Shown here: one piece after another, positions 1,069 through 10,515 of the stretch | Layout: the number at the start of each line of letters is the position of its first letter | Position numbering within the stretch: the stretch's first letter is position 1 | Assembly (NCBI RefSeq): GCF_007993755.1 | Contig: NZ_CP042467.1 | Span: 5,666,001-5,730,000, forward strand | Length of the DNA: 64,000 nucleotides | Source of the DNA: Microvenator marinus | Lineage (GTDB): Bacteria; Myxococcota_A; Bradymonadia; Bradymonadales; Bradymonadaceae | Direction: 5' to 3' | Position numbers and translations under genes: made by a program | The notes under the pieces: model-generated | Databases searched by the model: none | What the model saw: the letters and a program-made list of their open reading frames with translations, nothing else | What the model was told of the DNA's origin: nothing

Positions 1069-2465
1069 AGTACGACGTCATTGTTGTGGGTGCTGGTGTT
1101 GCAGGGTTGAGCACCGCACTCTCTCTAGCTGGGCGGCGGGTTCTCTTGGTCGCTGGGCGCGAATCCGCGAGCCGAATGGCACTTGGAGGCGTCGCGTTTC
1201 CTCTGAACACGGATGATATCGATTCGCATATCTCGGACACCTTGAAAGCAGGTGCCGGACTCTGCGTGGAATCTAGTGTTAGAGGCATCATCAACGACGC
1301 CCTAGACACCCTGGAGTGGCTGGAGAGCACAGGTTTTAGATTTGATAAGGGTTTGAATCACGAAGGAGGGCACGAAGTTGCCAGAGTCCGACGCTGCGGC
1401 GGAGACCGAAGTGGTGCAACGCTAACTACGCATCTGGACAACCGTCTCGGTGGACGTGTTGAGCGCGTGGATGCGCGCCTTACGGGCCTGTTTTTAGACG
1501 AATTTGGTGGACGAATCCGCGGAGTGGAGCTTCAGCGCGAGGGAAAGACTCAGCGCGTGGACGCAGAGACGGTCGTCCTGGCAACTGGTGGAATTGGGGG
1601 CCGTTTTGAAGCCTCGTCAAATCCGCTCAACGCCACGGGCGCGGGACTTGAGCTAGCACTTGCCGCTGGTGCAATGGTTCGAGACCTCGAAATGATTCAG
1701 TTTCATCCCACGGGCTTGGACGTCCTGACGCGACCTACACCCATCATCTCGGAGGCTTTGCGTGGTGCGGGTGCGCGGCTCGTGGACTCTAGCGGTCAGC
1801 CGTTTATGCAAGAACTTGGCGGCGATCTCGCGCCTCGGGATATTGTGGCTCGCGGCGTAGAAAGGGCACTTCAGACCGGCGGCGCATTTTTAGATTTGAC
1901 GCCCATCAAGGACCTTCAGAGGGAGTTTCCAAGTGCTGCCCTGGCGCTCCGGACCTGGGGGTTGAGTCTTGATCGCGTCCCGATTCGGCCACTCGTTCAT
2001 TACCACATGGGAGGACTCTTAGTTGACGAGGAAGGTCGCACATCCATCGACGGCTTGTTTGCCTGCGGGGAGGTTGCAAGCACAGGCCTGCATGGTGCGA
2101 ATCGTCTGGCGAGCAACTCGCTCTTGGAAGGTCTTGTGTGTGGCCGAAGGGTAGGGCGCGCAATAGGGGCAGAAGAGTCTCACTCAACGCGTTCCGGATT
2201 CAAGGTGGAGAACGTCAGAGCAAGGTTTTCGCCAAGAACTCTCTCCCTTGCAATGGGTGTGTCCAGAAGTCAGGAGATGCTTGAAATGGCGTTGGAAGAA
2301 CTGGAGCGAAGTGCACCCCAAGATCTGCTCGCCAGAGCGATTCTCCTATCCGCCTATCATCGGCGCGAATCGTGTGGCGCGCACCATAGGGCGGATTTTC
2401 CTGACCGAGTCGGACTTGGACATACCTTGATGGTCATGGACGGAGACGAGCTAAGCATCGCCTAG
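1065..2465 (+). CDS. nadB: L-aspartate oxidase NadB
   Basis: NadB is a cytoplasmic flavoenzyme that oxidises L-aspartate to iminoaspartate, the substrate of NadA. Visible features are the N-terminal FAD Rossmann motif GAGVAGLS, the substrate-domain segment MIQFHPTGL, and the FAD-closing segment GLFACGEVASTGLHGANRLASNSLLEGL. The protein is 466 aa, shorter than the roughly 540 aa of E. coli NadB, because the C-terminal helical domain is reduced. The start overlaps nadA by 4 nt. The stop overlaps the stop of the convergent regulator gene by 4 nt in a CTAG, leaving no room for a separate terminator. Confidence 0.95.
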   Translation: MKYDVIVVGAGVAGLSTALSLAGRRVLLVAGRESASRMALGGVAFPLNTDDIDSHISDTLKAGAGLCVESSVRGIINDALDTLEWLESTGFRFDKGLNHEGGHEVARVRRCGGDRSGATLTTHLDNRLGGRVERVDARLTGLFLDEFGGRIRGVELQREGKTQRVDAETVVLATGGIGGRFEASSNPLNATGAGLELALAAGAMVRDLEMIQFHPTGLDVLTRPTPIISEALRGAGARLVDSSGQPFMQELGGDLAPRDIVARGVERALQTGGAFLDLTPIKDLQREFPSAALALRTWGLSLDRVPIRPLVHYHMGGLLVDEEGRTSIDGLFACGEVASTGLHGANRLASNSLLEGLVCGRRVGRAIGAEESHSTRSGFKVENVRARFSPRTLSLAMGVSRSQEMLEMALEELERSAPQDLLARAILLSAYHRRESCGAHHRADFPDRVGLGHTLMVMDGDELSIA

Positions 2466-3172
2466 AAGTCGTCTTCACCTTCGGCGATTTCTGAGAGGCG
2501 GGCAGGGTCGGTGATCAAAAAGCCGTTTGGCAATGTTTGGACCGGACCTTCCTTATTCCACCGGCTCATCATGCGGATCGCGGTCTCGATGCGCACATTG
2601 ACAAGGTCGGCGATATCCCGTCTCGAGAGAGGCACATCTACGAAGATCGCCATGTTTCCGTTCTCGTCTTTTCTGCGTTGGCCCAATTTTTCCGCAAATT
2701 TTTCGAAGACCATCGCTAGGCGTTGTTCGGCAGACGAGGTGGTAAGCTCCTCGAGACGCCTCACCAAATGGTAATTCCGCTCCATCATCGCCTGGATGAA
2801 ACACTCCATGAGTTGGGTGTTTCGTTGGATGGTGCCGAAGAAATGGTCGCGATAGATTTCTAGACAAAGCGAGTCATCGAGGGCCACCGCACTCGCGGGG
2901 TAGGGGATGCGCCGAAACACAGCGATATGGCCTACGGCATCACCTTCGTCGAAGACCCCGAGAATCGTCTCTCCGCCATCTGGGCGGTACTTCACGATCT
3001 TGATCTTGCCTTCCACCAAAAAGACAAAATTATGAGCTGGCGAGCCCTCCCGCCAGAGCTCGTCACCGCGCTCAAACCGTTTGACCACAAAGTAGTCGAC
3101 CAACGGTTTCAACACGTCCTTCGAGACATTCTCAAAGATCGGCATCGACTGTAGCGCGTCCAATTTATCCAT
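2462..3172 (-). CDS. Crp/Fnr-family transcriptional regulator
   Basis: This 236-aa regulator has an N-terminal cyclic-nucleotide-binding-like jelly roll (about residues 5-125) and a C-terminal winged helix. The recognition helix reads LVNVRIETAIRMMSR, with the E-x3-R spacing used by FNR-type proteins that read TTGAT half sites. There is no N-terminal cysteine cluster, so it is unlikely to be an [4Fe-4S] oxygen sensor; a Dnr/Nnr-like NO or heme sensor is an inference. I chose ATG 3172 because GGGAG sits 5 nt upstream and MDKLDALQSMPIF resembles family N-termini; ATG 3211 would overlap the hemerythrin gene by 4 nt. It is co-directional with that gene, and FNR-like boxes lie nearby at 3701, 3921 and 8668. 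Confidence 0.9.
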   Translation of the reverse strand: MDKLDALQSMPIFENVSKDVLKPLVDYFVVKRFERGDELWREGSPAHNFVFLVEGKIKIVKYRPDGGETILGVFDEGDAVGHIAVFRRIPYPASAVALDDSLCLEIYRDHFFGTIQRNTQLMECFIQAMMERNYHLVRRLEELTTSSAEQRLAMVFEKFAEKLGQRRKDENGNMAIFVDVPLSRRDIADLVNVRIETAIRMMSRWNKEGPVQTLPNGFLITDPARLSEIAEGEDDF

Positions 3173-3207
3173 ATCGTCTCCCGGAGGAGCACATTCGACG
3201 CTGATAT

Positions 3208-3636
3208 TCATGGCGCACCTACGGAGCGCAGAATGAACTCCCTTTCGTCGGCACTATGGCGTTTGAAAGCAGCCCTGAAGTCGTCGATGAGCCATTGAAA
3301 TTTCTTGAAGTGCTCCTCGTTATGCGTGTAGGTTTGGATGAATTGGGTGATTTCGTCAACGCGGGACTTGAGATCGCCGTGCTGCTTTTGCAACGCTCGT
3401 AAATTGCGGTCGTTCTTGCCCGTCAGGTGAGGAAACATCTCGTTCTCCTCCTCGTCGATATGTTCGAAGAGTTCTTGCTTAAACGCGTTCCAGTAAGGCT
3501 TCAGCTCCTCGATCATGAAGTCCGGCGTCTGGCATCCTTGCAGACCGTCGATATGGGCCTCGACCTCATCGAGCAGGCGCACGAGGCTGCTGTGACCGTG
3601 TACGAAGTGCTCTTTTTCTTCTGCTGGCAATGACAT
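3208..3636 (-). CDS. Hemerythrin-like (HHE domain) protein
   Basis: This 142-aa all-helical cytoplasmic protein has the iron-ligand pattern of hemerythrin-like domains: HGHSSL near residue 14, HIDEEENEMFPHL in the middle, QHGDL, and a late His plus acidic run, RHSADERE. Such proteins bind O2 or NO at a di-iron site or help repair iron centres (YtfE/DnrN-type functions). It precedes the Crp/Fnr gene, probably as an operon, and carries an FNR-like box 65-76 nt upstream of its start. GAGG before the ATG supports the start. The context suggests handling of NO or nitrite stress, which is inference. Confidence 0.85.
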   Translation of the reverse strand: MSLPAEEKEHFVHGHSSLVRLLDEVEAHIDGLQGCQTPDFMIEELKPYWNAFKQELFEHIDEEENEMFPHLTGKNDRNLRALQKQHGDLKSRVDEITQFIQTYTHNEEHFKKFQWLIDDFRAAFKRHSADEREFILRSVGAP

Positions 3637-3875: not shown

Positions 3876-3920
3876 ACCGTCAACTGAATGGAAAGGTATC
3901 AGGAAAAATTGAAAAGAAAG

Positions 3921-3932
3921 TGATGTGGATCA
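3921..3932 (+). promoter_or_regulatory. FNR/DNR-like box upstream of the membrane operon
   Basis: TGATGTGGATCA is a perfect TGAT-N4-ATCA palindrome, the core of the FNR/DNR consensus TTGAT-N4-ATCAA. It sits 72-83 nt before the ATG at 4004. A class II position (centre near -41.5) would put the transcription start near 3968, leaving a short 5' leader. Confidence 0.6.
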
Positions 3933-4003
3933 TACGCGAGATTTTTTTTGGAACGAGATTAGCAGTGTGTGGAGGGCAAGGTTGGTTTTGGCCCGGAGAA
4001 TTG

Positions 4004-5206
4004 ATGAACACAAAGAAGACAAAGCTTGATTGGGAATGGAAGGCGGCAGCCTCGGGATTTGTGTTTGCGGGCTTGGTCGGTGCCTGGATGCGCTATGCGA
4101 TGTCCACAGGAAACTGGGCTGGCCTTGAGCTCGCCCACGTTCGGCACGCCCATTCTCACGTCATGCTCTTTGTGTGGGCTACTACCGGCTGGATGATCCT
4201 CTTGACGGAATATTTGGGACGTCTCGGCGCGCATATTGGCGGGTTTAGGCGCCTGATTCACTGGTCGCTGGGTCTTGGAATGGCGAGCTTCATTCCCTTT
4301 CTTTTTTGGGGCTATAAATTGGCTGAGATCGGCCCGGTTAGGATGCCGCTTTCGGTCATTATTTCAACGGCTCTGATGTTCGTTTGGTACGGGTTCGCCT
4401 GGGTGTGGAAAAAGCACCGGCACATCGTATTCGACCAAGGAACCCGCCTAGTTTTGGATATCGCGAATTTCTTCATGGTGGTTTGCACTCTTGGCGCCTG
4501 GCTTAGAGGCCTACTAGTGCCTCTTGGCGTTGACGACCCCGTATGGACGACCGGCGTTGTTCATATGTTTTTGAATACCATGACCGATGGTTGGCTCCTG
4601 GTGGGCCTTTTGGGCCTCATGGCCTTGTCAAGAAACGCAACGCTCACAACGCGCTTTCTTCCCGTCATGGCGGCAGGCATTCCGCTCAGCTTTCTGGCTG
4701 TGATTCATGGGCTCCCTTTGGAACTGCGAGTGCTCGGCGGACTTAGTTCCGTATTTTTTGTGTATGGGCTTCTGCGCACCTGGTGGCCGCTTCTGAAGCA
4801 TGCCTCAAAGTTCTTGGCGTTGGCGCTGCTCCTGATGGCAGCGGCGCGCCTGCTCTACACGGTTCCAGACATTATGCACTGGGCAGACCGAAGCGGCGTG
4901 CGGATCCTCTTTCTACATTGGGTCTTTCTCGGCGTGTTATCGGTAGGACTCTGGGAAGTTAGAGATAGGCTGGTAGGTTCGCGAACGGCAAGTGCCCTCG
5001 CATGGACCGTGCCGCCATTGGTCCTCGGGATTTTGCCCGCAACCGCACTCTGGTCGGTCTTTGCTTCATTTTTGAATCTGGATGCGTTGGCGTTTCTTAG
5101 GGCGGGTCAAGTGGCCACCGTATTGACGAGTTTCGGTCCTGCTCTTGTGGTCTTCTGGGCATTGGTCCACTTCAAGAACTCGAATCAAAGGAGGGGACAT
5201 GCCTAG
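4004..5206 (+). CDS. Polytopic membrane protein, heme-copper oxidase/NnrS-like
   Basis: This 400-aa protein has roughly ten to twelve hydrophobic helices. A His cluster HVRHAHSHVMLFVW (His45, 48, 50, 52) lies at the start of helix 2, and another His-bearing helix reads VVHMFLNTMTDGW. The H-x-H followed by a hydrophobic helix resembles the ligand helices of subunit-I-like heme-copper oxidases and NnrS/NorB relatives, so it may bind heme or copper; I cannot identify the exact family. ATG 4004 is chosen over GTG 3920 because GGAGAA lies just upstream and the earlier start would fall inside the FNR-like box. It overlaps the next gene by 8 nt. Confidence 0.75.
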   Translation: MNTKKTKLDWEWKAAASGFVFAGLVGAWMRYAMSTGNWAGLELAHVRHAHSHVMLFVWATTGWMILLTEYLGRLGAHIGGFRRLIHWSLGLGMASFIPFLFWGYKLAEIGPVRMPLSVIISTALMFVWYGFAWVWKKHRHIVFDQGTRLVLDIANFFMVVCTLGAWLRGLLVPLGVDDPVWTTGVVHMFLNTMTDGWLLVGLLGLMALSRNATLTTRFLPVMAAGIPLSFLAVIHGLPLELRVLGGLSSVFFVYGLLRTWWPLLKHASKFLALALLLMAAARLLYTVPDIMHWADRSGVRILFLHWVFLGVLSVGLWEVRDRLVGSRTASALAWTVPPLVLGILPATALWSVFASFLNLDALAFLRAGQVATVLTSFGPALVVFWALVHFKNSNQRRGHA

Positions 5207-5606
5207 AATCACACGAGTATTTCTTCGGACCGCGCTGGTCTTTTTTGTCTTGGGGCTGAGCCTTCTCTTGGCCGCGACTGTGGCCGGTATGCCGTGGGCC
5301 ATGCTCCTCTTGCCCACATACCTTCACTATTTCACGGTTGGGTTCATGACCTTCATGATCGCGGGAGTGGCGCTTTGGATGTTCCCCAGATGGACCAAGG
5401 AAGCGCCGCGCGGCCCTGAATGGCTCGGTTGGCTGTGTTATGGACTCCTCACAGTGGGATTGGCATTGCGAGGCATTGCAGAACCTGCAGGCGCACTTGG
5501 CTGGCTTTCAATGAACGCAGTGGTGGTCTTTTCCGCAGTTCTTCAATGGATGGGGGGATTGATCCTCGTTGGACTCCTCTGGCCAAGAATCAAGGAGAAG
5601 GGATGA
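5199..5606 (+). CDS. Four-helix membrane protein, oxidase subunit I-like fragment
   Basis: This 135-aa protein has four predicted membrane helices. The segment YLHYFTVGFMTFMIAGVALWMFPR follows the pattern H-x4-G-...-G-V-A-x-W-M-x-P-R seen in small cbb3-oxidase-subunit-I-like proteins. GGAGG (GAGGGG) lies just upstream of ATG 5199. It overlaps its upstream neighbour by 8 nt and the next gene by 4 nt, so all three are probably made together and may form one complex. The function is inferred only from fold resemblance and context. Confidence 0.7.
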   Translation: MPRITRVFLRTALVFFVLGLSLLLAATVAGMPWAMLLLPTYLHYFTVGFMTFMIAGVALWMFPRWTKEAPRGPEWLGWLCYGLLTVGLALRGIAEPAGALGWLSMNAVVVFSAVLQWMGGLILVGLLWPRIKEKG

Positions 5607-6022
5607 CTCGACTTTCGATCATAGCGTTGAAGGTGGGGCTCTTGAATTTCGCCATCGGCTGGACGATGGGCGCATGGTTATTGGCTGCCAAAGGTGCACC
5701 CTACATTCATCCCGGGTTCGACCTTCTCCACGGTCATGTCTCGATGATGACACTCGGGGCGATGGCTCAAATTGTATTTGCGGTGGCGTATTGGATCCTT
5801 CCAAGGGATGGGCGAGAACGCCCGCGTCCCGGCTTTGCCGCTGCTTCGCTCGTGGTCTTAAACCTCGCCGCATGGGTCGGGGTTATGGTGCATTGGACAC
5901 TGTATTCGATTGTCTTGGCGCTGATTTCGGCGCTTCTATTTCTGATTCACGCCTGGCCGAGAATCCGTCCTTTTGGGGCGGTCATTCCTAAGAAGAAGTC
6001 AGGCAATGGGAGGTTGGTATGA
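5603..6022 (+). CDS. Four-helix membrane protein, oxidase subunit I-like fragment
   Basis: This 139-aa membrane protein is similar in plan to its 135-aa neighbour. The motif DLLHGHVSMMTLGAMAQIVFAVAYWILPR again gives H-x-H plus a helix ending in a W-x-L-P-R turn, as in heme-copper-oxidase-like small subunits. The tail is basic (IPKKKSGNGR) and probably cytoplasmic. GGAGAAGG precedes the ATG. It overlaps the neighbours on both sides by 4 nt. I infer an N-oxide or oxygen-linked membrane complex with the two upstream proteins; no reaction can be assigned. Confidence 0.7.
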   Translation: MTRLSIIALKVGLLNFAIGWTMGAWLLAAKGAPYIHPGFDLLHGHVSMMTLGAMAQIVFAVAYWILPRDGRERPRPGFAAASLVVLNLAAWVGVMVHWTLYSIVLALISALLFLIHAWPRIRPFGAVIPKKKSGNGRLV

Positions 6023-7290
6023 AAAACACACATCTACTTTTTGTGGTTCTGGGATTGCTGCTCAGCACCGATCTTGCGGCGGAGACACTGCCTAGCGTCA
6101 CCAGAGACGAAGTGGCCGAGCCCGTCTTGAAGGTACACGCGAGCCTTCGTCCACGGCTGGAGTTGAGAACAGGACATCTCTTTGGCGAAGAAGCGGCCGA
6201 CGTTCTTTACGGGCCCAAAGTCGACTCCATGGACCTCTTCTCCCAGCAGTCTAGAGTCGGGGTAAGCCTTAATCACGGACAGGTTCATTCACGTGCCACG
6301 GTGCAGTTTGCGCAGGTTTGGGGAGCTCCGGTGAATGCTCAGCTGCATCCTTTTCCGATTCAGCTCTATGAAGGATTCATCGACTACGCCTTCCTTCCGA
6401 ACCTGAAGCTTCAGGCGGGGCGTTTTGAAATCGCGTATGGCGAGGAAAGGGTTCTGGGGTCTGTTGGGTGGAGCCAGGTTGGCAGAACCTGGGATGGATT
6501 GAGGCTCAAAGTAGGTTTTGGCGAGGATCATTTTGTGCACGTCTTTGGTGCTCGACATATCGATGGTGGAGCAGGAACTGAGGCCCTTGTGGGCGATGCG
6601 TATCTGAGCGGAGTCTACTCCCGGTTCGGCAAACTAGGACCGGTTGCCGAGCTTGACATCTATGCGTTGGCCGACACCCATTTTTCCGATTTTGACACCG
6701 ACGCTGCGCATCAAGAGATGCTCTTCACCTTCGGAGTGCGGTCAAAGACAGTCGTAAACGCGTGGGACCTCGTAGTGGAGGGCGCCATCCAGGGGGGCAC
6801 ACGGTGTTTGCGGGATGTTGACGGTGCGTGTCTTACCGAAAGTCAGGATGCGTTTGCGTGGTTCGCGGAGGCTCAGAGTGGATACAAATTTGGGCAGACT
6901 AGAACGTTTGTCGGGGGATCTGTAGCCAGCGGCGACAATCCCGATACCGAGACAAACGAGGCCTTTGACCAACTCTATCCCACCGGACATGCGCACGTGG
7001 GCTGGATGGACTTCTTCCCTCGCTCCAACATCGTGGACATCTACGCAGGTGTGAACACAAAGTTTGAGTGGATGAGCTTCACCCTCAAACTACACGAGTT
7101 TCAACGTCTTGAGCCGGAAATGGTTCGATTGGGAAATGAACTGGACTTTCAGTTGACTCTGCCTCTCACCGACTCGGTGGCGGTGGATGCCGGAATGGGG
7201 TTGTTCCTTGCAGCTGAAGGAATGTCGGCGACTGAGGAGGCGAGCGGCCTCGCAACATGGACATTCGCGTCCATGCGATGGGCATTCTAA
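6019..7290 (+). CDS. Outer-membrane beta-barrel, alginate-export-like porin (copy 1)
   Basis: The 423-aa product has a cleavable signal peptide (hydrophobic core, then LAAETLPS) and an aromatic C-terminal residue pattern ending in RWAF, as expected for a BAM substrate. Motifs such as RPRLELRTGH, VQFAQVWG, LQAGRFEIAYGEERVLG and QVGRTWDGLRLK match the alginate-export-type porin family. It overlaps the membrane trio by 4 nt, so it belongs to the same operon, and it is paralogous to the next gene. It may let a small anion or metal reach the periplasmic cupredoxin; that role is inference. Confidence 0.8.
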   Translation: MKNTHLLFVVLGLLLSTDLAAETLPSVTRDEVAEPVLKVHASLRPRLELRTGHLFGEEAADVLYGPKVDSMDLFSQQSRVGVSLNHGQVHSRATVQFAQVWGAPVNAQLHPFPIQLYEGFIDYAFLPNLKLQAGRFEIAYGEERVLGSVGWSQVGRTWDGLRLKVGFGEDHFVHVFGARHIDGGAGTEALVGDAYLSGVYSRFGKLGPVAELDIYALADTHFSDFDTDAAHQEMLFTFGVRSKTVVNAWDLVVEGAIQGGTRCLRDVDGACLTESQDAFAWFAEAQSGYKFGQTRTFVGGSVASGDNPDTETNEAFDQLYPTGHAHVGWMDFFPRSNIVDIYAGVNTKFEWMSFTLKLHEFQRLEPEMVRLGNELDFQLTLPLTDSVAVDAGMGLFLAAEGMSATEEASGLATWTFASMRWAF

Positions 7291-7310: not shown

Positions 7311-7365
7311 TTTTTGATCCATTCGAGTGCTGCTAAACAAAGTAGAAATTCGAATGGATGAAAAA
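7311..7365 (+). promoter_or_regulatory. Long inverted repeat covering the leader and start of the second porin
   Basis: The arms TTTTTGATCCATTCGA (7311-7326) and TCGAATGGATGAAAAA (7350-7365) pair at 15 of 16 positions around a 23-nt loop. The right arm contains the only purine-rich ribosome-binding candidate and ends on the A of the start codon. If transcribed it would hide the start site, so it may control translation or act as an attenuator between the two porin genes. Confidence 0.6.
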
Positions 7366-8585
7366 TGCGAAATCTACTTCCTCTAATCTTCTCATCGATG
7401 CTCTTTGTTCCGGCAGCTGCTGCCGAAGACGGTGCTAAGCCGGAGCTCGAAATTCACGCCGACACACGTCCACGCCTTGAAGCCCGGTTTGGTCACCATT
7501 TCGGCAAAGAACTCGATAATCAACTCGTCACAGGCAACCAGCCGAATTCACGGGATGTCTTCTCGCAGCGCACGCGCCTCGGGGTGAGTTTGCCTGGCGA
7601 GGAGCTGCGCGCCCGCACCACAATTCAGTTTGCACAAATCTGGGGGGACGAAGCAGATGCTCAAATTGCTCCCTTTCCGGTCAAAGCCTACGAGGCGTGG
7701 ATTGAGTACTCGATCAGGTATCACCTGGAGCTGAGGGCAGGGCGCTTTGAGCTCAACTATGGTGAGGCGAGAGTTGTTGGGGCACCGGGCTGGAATCAGG
7801 TGGGCCGTACTTGGGACGGCGTGCGTGTGCGAACAAGACTCATTGAGGATGGATTTGTAGACGTGTGGGCCGCTCGAAATCAGGACGGCGGGCCCGGCAC
7901 CGAGTTCCTGGAGAACGACGGCTATTTCTCCGGAATCTACTCGAGCCTGAGAATGATTCCCGGAATCTCTGAGCTCGATGTCTATCTTCTTGCAGATACA
8001 AAACTGAGCGATTTCGAGTCAGATGCCGCCCATCGGAAGCTCCTCGGTGTGGCTGGTATGCGCCTGAAATTGGGCGACAAAAAGGCCAACCTAGTGGCTG
8101 AAGGCGCGCTCCAAGCCGGACAAATTTGCGTGCAGGATTCGGAAAGCCTGTGTACCTCAGCTACTGAAGATTTCACCGGTGGCATGTTTGAGATCGAAGG
8201 CCGCTACGTCCTTGGTGGCGTTCTGACAACTTACGGCGCGATATCTTGGGCCAGTGAAGACAACGACCCGGTCTACCCCAAGGGACATGCGCATCTGGGC
8301 TGGATGGACTTCTTCAGGCGCAGTGATCTGGCAGAGGCTCATGTGGGTGCGAAGTTCGACACCGGTTACACGCAAATTCACTTCAAAGCGCATGAGTTCT
8401 GGCGCTCCGACTTCGATTCCAGACTTGGGACTGAGTTGAACCTCGCCATCGGCGTCAAGCCGATTGGTGGACTGAGTTTTGAGGGTGGTGGCGGACTTTT
8501 TTTCGCGGATGAGGGCATGGTTCTTGACGGAAATCCTGACGGAACTGCAAGCTGGCTATACACCACAATGTTGTGGTTCTACTGA
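7365..8585 (+). CDS. Outer-membrane beta-barrel, alginate-export-like porin (copy 2)
   Basis: This 406-aa paralogue of the preceding porin shares RPRLEARFGH, TIQFAQIWG, LRAGRFELNYGEARVVG, QVGRTWDGVRV and GHAHLGWMDFF. A signal peptide (SSMLFVPAAAAEDG) precedes the barrel and the C-terminus is aromatic (TTMLWFY). Pairwise similarity to copy 1 runs along the full length, so this is a tandem duplication with moderate divergence. The gap from copy 1 is only 74 nt and is filled by the inverted repeat at 7311-7365. Confidence 0.8.
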   Translation: MRNLLPLIFSSMLFVPAAAAEDGAKPELEIHADTRPRLEARFGHHFGKELDNQLVTGNQPNSRDVFSQRTRLGVSLPGEELRARTTIQFAQIWGDEADAQIAPFPVKAYEAWIEYSIRYHLELRAGRFELNYGEARVVGAPGWNQVGRTWDGVRVRTRLIEDGFVDVWAARNQDGGPGTEFLENDGYFSGIYSSLRMIPGISELDVYLLADTKLSDFESDAAHRKLLGVAGMRLKLGDKKANLVAEGALQAGQICVQDSESLCTSATEDFTGGMFEIEGRYVLGGVLTTYGAISWASEDNDPVYPKGHAHLGWMDFFRRSDLAEAHVGAKFDTGYTQIHFKAHEFWRSDFDSRLGTELNLAIGVKPIGGLSFEGGGGLFFADEGMVLDGNPDGTASWLYTTMLWFY

Positions 8586-8667
8586 GGGTTAGGGTGCGAC
8601 AATTTACCGCATTGTCCGCTCGTTGATTCGAATTTATCTTAGATTGGGGAAATTTCTTCGTTTTGTA

Positions 8668-8679
8668 TGATCTACATCA
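8668..8679 (+). promoter_or_regulatory. FNR/DNR-like box upstream of the NirK-family gene
   Basis: TGATCTACATCA is a perfect TGAT-N4-ATCA palindrome lying 64-75 nt before the start at 8743. It is the third such box in the island and shares TATGATCTA with the one at 3701. TAGGTT near 8702 could be the -10 element for a class II activated promoter. Confidence 0.6.
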
Positions 8680-8742
8680 CTGCCGGCTCCTCGCGTGTTG
8701 CTAGGTTCCGTTCATGGCATGCAGCACACAGGAGGTCTGGCC

Positions 8743-10515
8743 ATGACGAAAAAATCCCCACATCCCGCCCTAAAGGGCATTCTTCTCGCTCTCGTCTCAA
8801 TGGGCGCATTCTACAGCGCAGACGCGCTCGCGTGCGATTCGTGTAACGAGGTCTTCCGTAAACAAGTCATGGCGGAGCGCTCCGATTCGCTCACGGGCAA
8901 AGACATGCTCCAGGCCATGGAAAACCAGAAGGGACTTCCTATCGGTAATGAGGTCAAGGGCAATGTGGTCCTTGCCCAGGCGGATATCAAGGCACCTAAG
9001 GCTGCCCCAACACAAGTCGCCTCAGTGACCCCAGACGCCAAAAAGCGCGTAGCTAAGAAGGGTGAGCTCAACCCCATTTTTGAAGGTGCGGATTTTATCG
9101 ACATCATCGAGCGCGACGAGAACCTCTCCATTCGCACCACGAGCTTCGTTCCTCAAAACACCAAACCCGACAAGACCTTCACGATCGAACTCAATGAAGG
9201 CAAGACTTATATCGGACAAGGTGTGGTCTATGATGGTTTCCTCATGGACGGCGGTGTGCCTGGTCAAACGATCGTCGTGCAAGAAGGCGATATCGTCGAA
9301 ATGAAGATCAAGAACACTGGCTCCGTGCCTCACGGGGCGTCGATTCACGCGGCGTACACCCAAACGTCAAAGTATGTGGGTAAAGTGCAACCCGGCGAGA
9401 CCAAATCGGTGGTCTTCCGCGCGACTGTGCCCGGTGTGTACATGTATCACTGCGCGCCGGGTGGCCACGCCATCCCTATGCACGTGCTCTTCGGACAGTA
9501 CGGAATGATGGTGGTTGAGCCTAAGGAGACCAAATACAAACTTGAGGAAGAGCTCGGCAGAAAGCCCGACATTAACCTCTACCTTCTTCAACACGAGTTC
9601 TACGCGAGCGGCGCCGACGCTATCAATGGCGACCTTCTCTACACGGCATTCAACGGAAAGGTATTCCGCTACGTTGAGGAGCCGATTGTAGGGCGCCCAG
9701 GCGACTACGTCCGAATTCACTACTTGAATATCGGTCCGAATCGCACCTCGACCTTCCATATTGTGGGTATCCTCTGGGACTACGCCTACTGGCAGGGGCA
9801 CCCAGATAAGTTCCAATACGGCGGACAGTCCATTACCTCGGGCCCTACGGATTCATGGGTTGTGGAATTCAGGCTGCCACCGGACGAAGGCTCGTACTTG
9901 ATGCTCGACCACGCCGTAGGCGCGACCAGTCGTGGCTCAATCGGAGTCATCGTTGCGGACGGCAAAGCAGAGCCCGGTCCTAAGACCTACCTCGCCGAAG
10001 CACCGGCCTATACCGAAGCTGAGAAGGCAGAGCAGATCGAGAAGGCGACACGTACGATTTCGCCTTTCGGAATCGGTAACGCTGAGGCTGACCGTCCGGT
10101 CTACTATGGCCCAGAGCAGAAGGAAGTGTTCGTCAAAATCATCGGTAACTCCTTCCATCCGAAAGTGATCGAAATCGAGCCAGGCACCAAAGTCACCTGG
10201 ATCAACGAGGACGTCTTCACCTTCATGGCTGGCGAGTACTCAGGTATTCACAACGCCATTGGTATCAACGGTCCGGAGCGGTTTGCCACCCCACTTCTGG
10301 CGCACGCTGAGACAGCTTCTCATACCTTCACGACTGCCGGCGAGAACGAGTATATGTGCGCACCCCACCCGTATATGAAGGGTAAGATTATCGTGCGCCA
10401 ACCTAAGGTGGTCGAGGAGCCCAAAGGTGGTTGTTCAACAACTGGCTCCCCTGCAGGTGCGGCTGGCCTCGTGCTCATCGCGCTTGGACTGCTCTTCGTA
10501 CGCCGCCGAAACTAA
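8743..10515 (+). CDS. NirK-family copper nitrite reductase-like protein with three cupredoxin domains
   Basis: The 590-aa protein has a signal peptide ending near ALA-CDSC, two NirK-type cupredoxin domains (about 140-265 and 280-410), a third C-terminal cupredoxin (about 465-555; His503, Cys539, His542, Met545) and a MYXO-CTERM-like tail (Cys564, helix, VRRRN). By eye, domain 1 keeps His197, His202, His236, Cys237 and His247, but Ser200 replaces the catalytic Asp98 and Gln252 the axial Met150 of Achromobacter NirK. Domain 2 keeps His390 but has Leu344 in place of His255. Nitrite reduction is therefore plausible by family but not assured; another copper oxidoreductase is possible. AGGAGG 7 nt upstream fixes the start. 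An FNR-like box precedes it. Confidence 0.8.
   Translation: MTKKSPHPALKGILLALVSMGAFYSADALACDSCNEVFRKQVMAERSDSLTGKDMLQAMENQKGLPIGNEVKGNVVLAQADIKAPKAAPTQVASVTPDAKKRVAKKGELNPIFEGADFIDIIERDENLSIRTTSFVPQNTKPDKTFTIELNEGKTYIGQGVVYDGFLMDGGVPGQTIVVQEGDIVEMKIKNTGSVPHGASIHAAYTQTSKYVGKVQPGETKSVVFRATVPGVYMYHCAPGGHAIPMHVLFGQYGMMVVEPKETKYKLEEELGRKPDINLYLLQHEFYASGADAINGDLLYTAFNGKVFRYVEEPIVGRPGDYVRIHYLNIGPNRTSTFHIVGILWDYAYWQGHPDKFQYGGQSITSGPTDSWVVEFRLPPDEGSYLMLDHAVGATSRGSIGVIVADGKAEPGPKTYLAEAPAYTEAEKAEQIEKATRTISPFGIGNAEADRPVYYGPEQKEVFVKIIGNSFHPKVIEIEPGTKVTWINEDVFTFMAGEYSGIHNAIGINGPERFATPLLAHAETASHTFTTAGENEYMCAPHPYMKGKIIVRQPKVVEEPKGGCSTTGSPAGAAGLVLIALGLLFVRRRN

Follow-up and report, generated by a model that had tools for sequence, protein, structure and literature searches.

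Within the window analysed here, a stretch of 64,000 nucleotides (positions 5666001-5730000 in one contig of the 5.85 Mb genome of Microvenator marinus), three consecutive genes on the plus strand raise the question of whether a heme-copper oxidase (HCO) subunit can be divided over several small membrane proteins and, if so, what remains of its heme sites. Gene A (4004..5206) is predicted from its translation and homologues to encode a multi-helix membrane protein of 400 aa, and is followed by gene B (5199..5606, 135 aa) and gene C (5603..6022, 139 aa). A and B overlap by 8 nt (5199-5206), B and C by 4 nt (5603-5606, ATGA), and C overlaps a following porin gene by a further 4 nt (6019-6022, ATGA). 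The histidines lie in the motifs HAHSHVMLF of A (H48, H50, H52), YLHYFTVGF...WMFPR of B (H43) and HGHVSMMTLG...WILPR of C (H43, H45). A sequence-only reading had described three overlapping membrane reading frames with overlaps of 8, 4 and 4 nt, and its coordinates, strand and motifs are all confirmed. None of the three proteins reaches the cut-off of any family in Pfam or NCBIfam, and searches of a plasmid collection with A and C returned no match.

The same reading had called the proteins oxidase-like, and for B and C the comparison with known oxidases bears this out. Aligned with hhalign to TM I-IV of CcoN, which is subunit I of cbb3 oxidase, B scored 95.5% (E 1.6e-8) and C scored 95.9% (E 5e-9), against 0.1-0.3% for reversed-sequence controls. 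CcoN itself contains an internal repeat, with unit 1 matching unit 3 at 97% and unit 2 at 88%, and a profile of the B/C unit also retrieves true CcoN proteins in many genomes, including that of the window (3e-4). Chloroflexota relatives of B and C match Pfam COX1 at 1.8e-7 and 5.7e-6 respectively; B itself gives a sub-threshold match (12.5 bits against a curated cut-off of 34.8, E 0.065), A and C give none, and no protein of the three matches COX1 over its whole length above that cut-off.

The AlphaFold2 model of C (pLDDT 90.3, pTM 0.80) contains four helices, at residues 3-31, 38-65, 76-95 and 99-120. Using VIA-align, 131 of its 139 residues superpose on residues 12-180 of human COX1 with a Z score of 13.4, and 125 residues superpose on residues 69-218 of cbb3 subunit I with a Z score of 10.9 and an rmsd of 2.6 Å, so that the model lies on TM I-IV of HCO subunit I. 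Unrelated MAPEG four-helix proteins come close behind with Z scores of about 10, which makes the fold indecisive by itself, and it is the sequence evidence that carries weight; a Foldseek search with the C model found nothing below E 0.001, with HCOs only among the weak matches. Judged by these alignments and, for C, the model, B and C are single copies of the four-helix unit that is present three times in HCO subunit I. They are like CcoN and NorB in the sequence and fold of one unit and in the positions of the low-spin heme histidines, but differ in having one unit per chain without the CuB/FeB ligands and, in B, without the high-spin heme histidine.

A further suggestion, that the small proteins are paralogues of one another, holds for B and C, which find each other by BLASTP (E 1e-7) and by profile-profile comparison (99.9%, E 9e-35, reversed control 0.9%). 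Tandem B-C pairs are present in Myxococcota, and a genome-wide scan together with three phylum samples recovered them in Chloroflexota, in Gemmatimonadota and in the Bacteroidota/Ignavibacteria group, the last including an Ignavibacteriales genome. Among 284 genomes of the window's phylum the pair is carried by 13 members of the window's family and by a few other genomes; Lujinxingia and other Bradymonadales (Myxococcota) have operons closely related to that of the window. In Chloroflexota the pair is present in 27 of 301 sampled genomes. The order is B then C, with an ATGA overlap or a short gap in most cases. The gene overlaps had been taken to argue for a fixed stoichiometry, for which they are insufficient on their own; the conserved tandem order is a better argument that B and C act together. 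In a tree, first and second genes of the pairs form mostly separate lineages (6 and 7 label changes, compared to about 55 when labels are shuffled), which argues for one old division of labour maintained under selection rather than 70 separate events. Many of the 70 pairs are phylogenetically related, and they therefore represent far fewer independent events.

The nature of this division is suggested by the histidines. In HCOs the low-spin heme is ligated by the TM II histidine and the second TM X histidine, and the high-spin heme by the first TM X histidine. If p3 and p5 denote the two histidine sites of HxH, a motif placed where the second helix of each unit begins, the low-spin ligands are p3 of unit 1 and p5 of unit 3. 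Stand-alone four-helix relatives, which fit unit 3 of CcoN best (3e-13), carry HxH in 46 of 49 cases. In the tandem pairs the first gene has a p5 histidine in approximately 67-68 of 70 and a p3 histidine in only about 10, the alternatives being Tyr, Phe or Trp, and the second gene has a p3 histidine in about 67 of 70 and a p5 histidine in about 16-18, the alternatives being mainly Glu, Ala or Gln; these counts are approximate, as a few of the 70 pairs are frame-split or join two unlike families. The alignments thus describe a complementary loss, in which B has kept almost only the second ancestral histidine and C almost only the first, although about a fifth of second genes also retain the second histidine, which counts against it.

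The window pair conforms, with Tyr41-Leu-His43 in B, where His43 (5325-5327) is p5 and Tyr41 is p3, and His45-Val-Ser47 in C, where His45 (5735-5737) is p3 and Ser47 is p5. Poor conservation of the histidines among homologues had been named in advance as evidence against a split oxidase-like subunit. On checking, B H43 is kept in 15/15 and 20/20 homologues, C H45 in 15/15, the N-terminal HxH of A (H50, 4151-4153; H52, 4157-4159) in all 13 rows that cover it and the C-terminal H305 of A (4916-4918) in 14/14, and of the motif histidines A H48 and C H43 are not conserved. In the profile alignment C His45 falls on the TM II heme histidine of CcoN. The assignment of C to TM II and of B to TM X is tentative, since the unit preferences behind it are weak: C prefers unit 1 of CcoN (TM I-IV, 8e-10) to unit 3 (1.4e-5), and B also scores higher on unit 1 (9e-11) than on unit 3 (6e-8).

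As each paralogue keeps a different ancestral heme-holding histidine, a single heme is probably shared by the two gene products. B and C would stem from an HxH-bearing four-helix ancestor through tandem duplication, after which each may have retained the single histidine needed at their common interface. C His45 would act as the TM II low-spin ligand and B His43 as the second TM X histidine, and a B-C heterodimer would hold one bis-histidine heme b between p3 of C and p5 of B, the mirror site having been lost. The conserved histidines could instead be structural or form a proton relay with no heme bound, and the frequent Glu at p5 of the second gene might be part of such a relay; since the stand-alone relatives and the HCOs both have HxH exactly where heme ligands lie, we regard this as very improbable.

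Another possibility that had been raised is that the three chains together make up one catalytic subunit, which would explain why B, C and part of A are homologous to HCOs and why the three co-occur. The catalytic centre of an HCO or NO reductase requires six histidines, two for the low-spin heme, one for the high-spin heme and three for CuB or FeB. Taken together, A, B and C have five conserved histidines, one in B, one in C and three in A, with no CuB/FeB set among them, so the trio is not a split catalytic subunit. The pair is also found without A in 24 of the 27 Chloroflexota genomes that have it, and the genome of the window already carries two oxidases and a NOR-type HCO. A single oxidase or NO reductase centre built from the three chains is therefore barely credible. 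The preferred reading of a heme shared between B and C assigns A the place of a partner, with all three proteins as membrane subunits of the HCO superfold that would lack a catalytic copper site.

The relationship of A to the pair is limited to one region. Residues 1-95 match the B/C profiles at 92-93% (E 4e-7, reversed control 0.5-6%), and by this comparison the N-terminal part of A is a related HCO-type unit and the only securely related part of the protein; the C-terminal part scored between 48% and 3%, varying with the B set used. A structure prediction of A from two sequences reached a pLDDT of only 46 and the model was not used. Within the 57 genomes of the class, A is confined to 13 members of the window's family; in this family 12 genomes have both A and B-C, one has A alone, one B-C alone and seven neither (p 5e-4, a value that ignores kinship and includes some incomplete genomes). 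Outside this family, a test of 80 Chloroflexota genomes found A in three, each of them with B-C. The order A-B-C is seen in the window, in genome G009 (L026), where a cytochrome c gene precedes it, and in the Chloroflexota genome G643 (L239). Most genomes have B-C without A, or A without an adjoining B-C, which counts against the preferred reading, and binding of A to the B-C pair is something that we infer.

In several Chloroflexota a different gene lies directly 5' of B-C (L096:4212-5273, L091:8936-9997, L103:8836-9897). Its product, A', has 353 aa, 11 helices and an AHGPLM motif, has no Pfam family and looks unrelated to A; it was considered as an A orthologue and ruled out by profile comparison (0.5%). 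Full-length A gave no signal against profiles of A', NnrS or CcoN. DUF2871 (PF11070) gives partial sub-threshold matches to an Ignavibacteriales B-like protein (9.6e-4) and to the N-terminal region of a Chloroflexota A homologue (8.5e-5), with none of A, B and C themselves reaching its cut-off.

The surroundings of the operon point to denitrification. A Crp/Fnr-family regulator is encoded at 2462..3211 on the minus strand (Pfam cNMP_binding 2e-21, HTH_Crp_2 9e-11), next to a hemerythrin-domain protein (3208..3636, minus strand, Pfam Hemerythrin 3e-12) that is divergent from A. An Fnr/Dnr-type palindrome, GTGAT-GTGG-ATCAT, lies at 3920..3933 on the plus strand, and the start codon of A follows about 72 nt downstream. 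C is followed on the plus strand by two alginate-export-type outer-membrane porin genes, one at 6019..7290 (Pfam Alginate_exp 9.7e-22), which is probably on the same transcript as C, and one at 7365..8585 (Pfam Alginate_exp 1.9e-13). Beyond these a second palindrome (8667..8680, plus strand) lies some 60-61 nt upstream of the ATG (8740) of a NirK-like copper nitrite reductase (8740..10515, plus strand, TIGR02376 2e-37) with a C-terminal cupredoxin domain (amicyanin 1e-14) and a MYXO-CTERM anchor (1e-5). The pattern TGATN4ATCA occurs 112 times in the genome and five times in the 32 kb around A-B-C, compared to 0.6 expected; these five include the copies before A and nirK and one about 62 nt before a NOR-type operon. 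The regulator at 2462..3211 likely reads these palindromes; a search for sigma-70 promoters found none.

Further upstream, over 4-20 kb, are genes for CyoE, NnrS, TlpA, a degenerate COX1, COX2, an eNOR-like subunit, SCO and a cytochrome b-ferredoxin-FlpD fusion. TM VI of the NOR-type HCO of this genome reads GHQSQ, with Gln in place of the oxidase Tyr, a substitution that is the mark of eNOR (PMC8756737). The degenerate COX1, which lies upstream of the window, is a second paralogue (L005:14917-16398, minus strand) with HYH at TM X that matches COX1 at only 5e-6, and shares one operon with COX2 and the eNOR-like subunit. The fusion protein (L005:9544-11601, minus strand, 685 aa) combines cytochrome b, a 4Fe-4S ferredoxin and a FlpD/MvhD-like domain. 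This cytochrome b-FeS gene directly precedes B-C in four Bradymonadia loci (L062, L067, L069 and L071) and so may feed electrons to the pair; in L062, L069 and L071 a COX1-type gene lies further upstream, giving COX1-SCO-cytb/FeS-B-C operons. In other phyla the neighbours of B-C, part of which were named by eye, include NosZ, narGHJI, NirK, RIC, Rrf2, truncated globin, cupredoxins and heme-synthesis genes. Full-length NosZ is present in 6 of the 27 Chloroflexota genomes with B-C and in 10 of the 274 without (p 0.0013 over 301 genomes, ignoring kinship).

Some of these neighbours would also fit an assembly factor: A-B-C would then supply NOR, NirK or NosZ with heme or copper, by delivery or insertion, without being a redox protein itself. 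SCO, CopD-like, CyoE, TlpA and cupredoxin genes are close by, and heme-synthesis genes, identified by eye, adjoin B-C in two Chloroflexota: hemC/hemA-like genes in L093 and hemC-hemB-HemQ-hemE-hemH-like genes in L232; the HemQ-like chlorite dismutase match reaches 3.7e-46. However, a resident heme needs just such invariant histidines in the membrane, on the HCO heme helix, A-B-C showed no metal-transfer motif of Cys or Met, and most HCO genomes lack the pair, which is present in at most 27 of 253 COX1-bearing Chloroflexota. An assembly role is thus rather improbable.

Others of the neighbours, namely the NnrS, hemerythrin/RIC, truncated globin and Rrf2/Fnr genes found near B-C in several phyla, suggest an NnrS-like device for NO protection, in which a membrane system with heme would bind or detoxify NO and pass no respiratory electrons. 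NnrS (PF05940) shares genomic neighbourhoods with B-C, and a Chloroflexota protein forms a bridge between NnrS and COX1. This 469-aa, 12-TM protein (L225:885-2294, minus strand) has three HCO-type units in one chain (3e-15, 2e-9 and 6e-18) and matches both Pfam NnrS (1e-13) and Pfam COX1 (1e-12), which ties together NnrS, the HCOs and the four-helix units and places NnrS in the same superfold. NnrS differs in having 12 helices in one chain, and A, B and C have no PF05940 match, with A scoring only 0.3% against NnrS profiles. The genome also has a separate NnrS, and the mechanism of NnrS itself is unsettled. We consider such a device possible, though on the unlikely side. At another locus (L233:6210-7441, minus strand) a two-unit protein of 277 aa overlaps a one-unit protein of 133 aa by 4 nt, and is a 2+1 split of the three-unit plan.

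The explanation that we favour, at a probability of about 0.5, is that B-C is a non-catalytic b-heme module split over two chains, with A as its partner, and that it serves electron transfer or NO handling in denitrification. The one heme common to the B and C gene products would then probably belong to the nitrite/nitric-oxide pathway; together with A the pair may pass electrons at the membrane or handle NO, next to a periplasmic cytochrome c, a cupredoxin, NirK and a NOR. A more far-reaching version is speculative and unlikely: that a single low-spin heme site of HCO type is now split over two separately encoded paralogues, each of which lost one ligand, and that A-B-C is a novel NO- or electron-handling complex of denitrifiers that survives from a modular stage before the three-unit oxidases.

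Four-helix "HCO unit" proteins are reportedly the subject of Pei, Li, Kinch and Grishin 2014, Protein Sci 23:1220. As represented in papers that cite it, that study concerns HCO subunit I arising from four-helix units with free-standing relatives (PMC4602095) and roles in the handling of nitrogen compounds (PMC11218638). Single units, the pseudo-threefold HCO subunit I and the link to denitrification are therefore shared with that work, and the idea of a four-helix unit is prior art; in so far as the citing papers convey its content, what is added here is the B-C pair with its complementary histidine loss, its spread, and an operon of A, B and C within a denitrification regulon.

Respiratory oxidases and NO reductases resemble three fused copies of one four-helix unit, and the single units with HxH, the split pairs with one histidine each, the 2+1 pairs and the three-unit fusions provide a series in which the origin of the heme site can be tested. 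The B-C pair is widespread, carries no name in Pfam or NCBIfam and lies beside nirK, nosZ and NOR genes, and may therefore be a part of denitrification and N2O turnover that has been overlooked.
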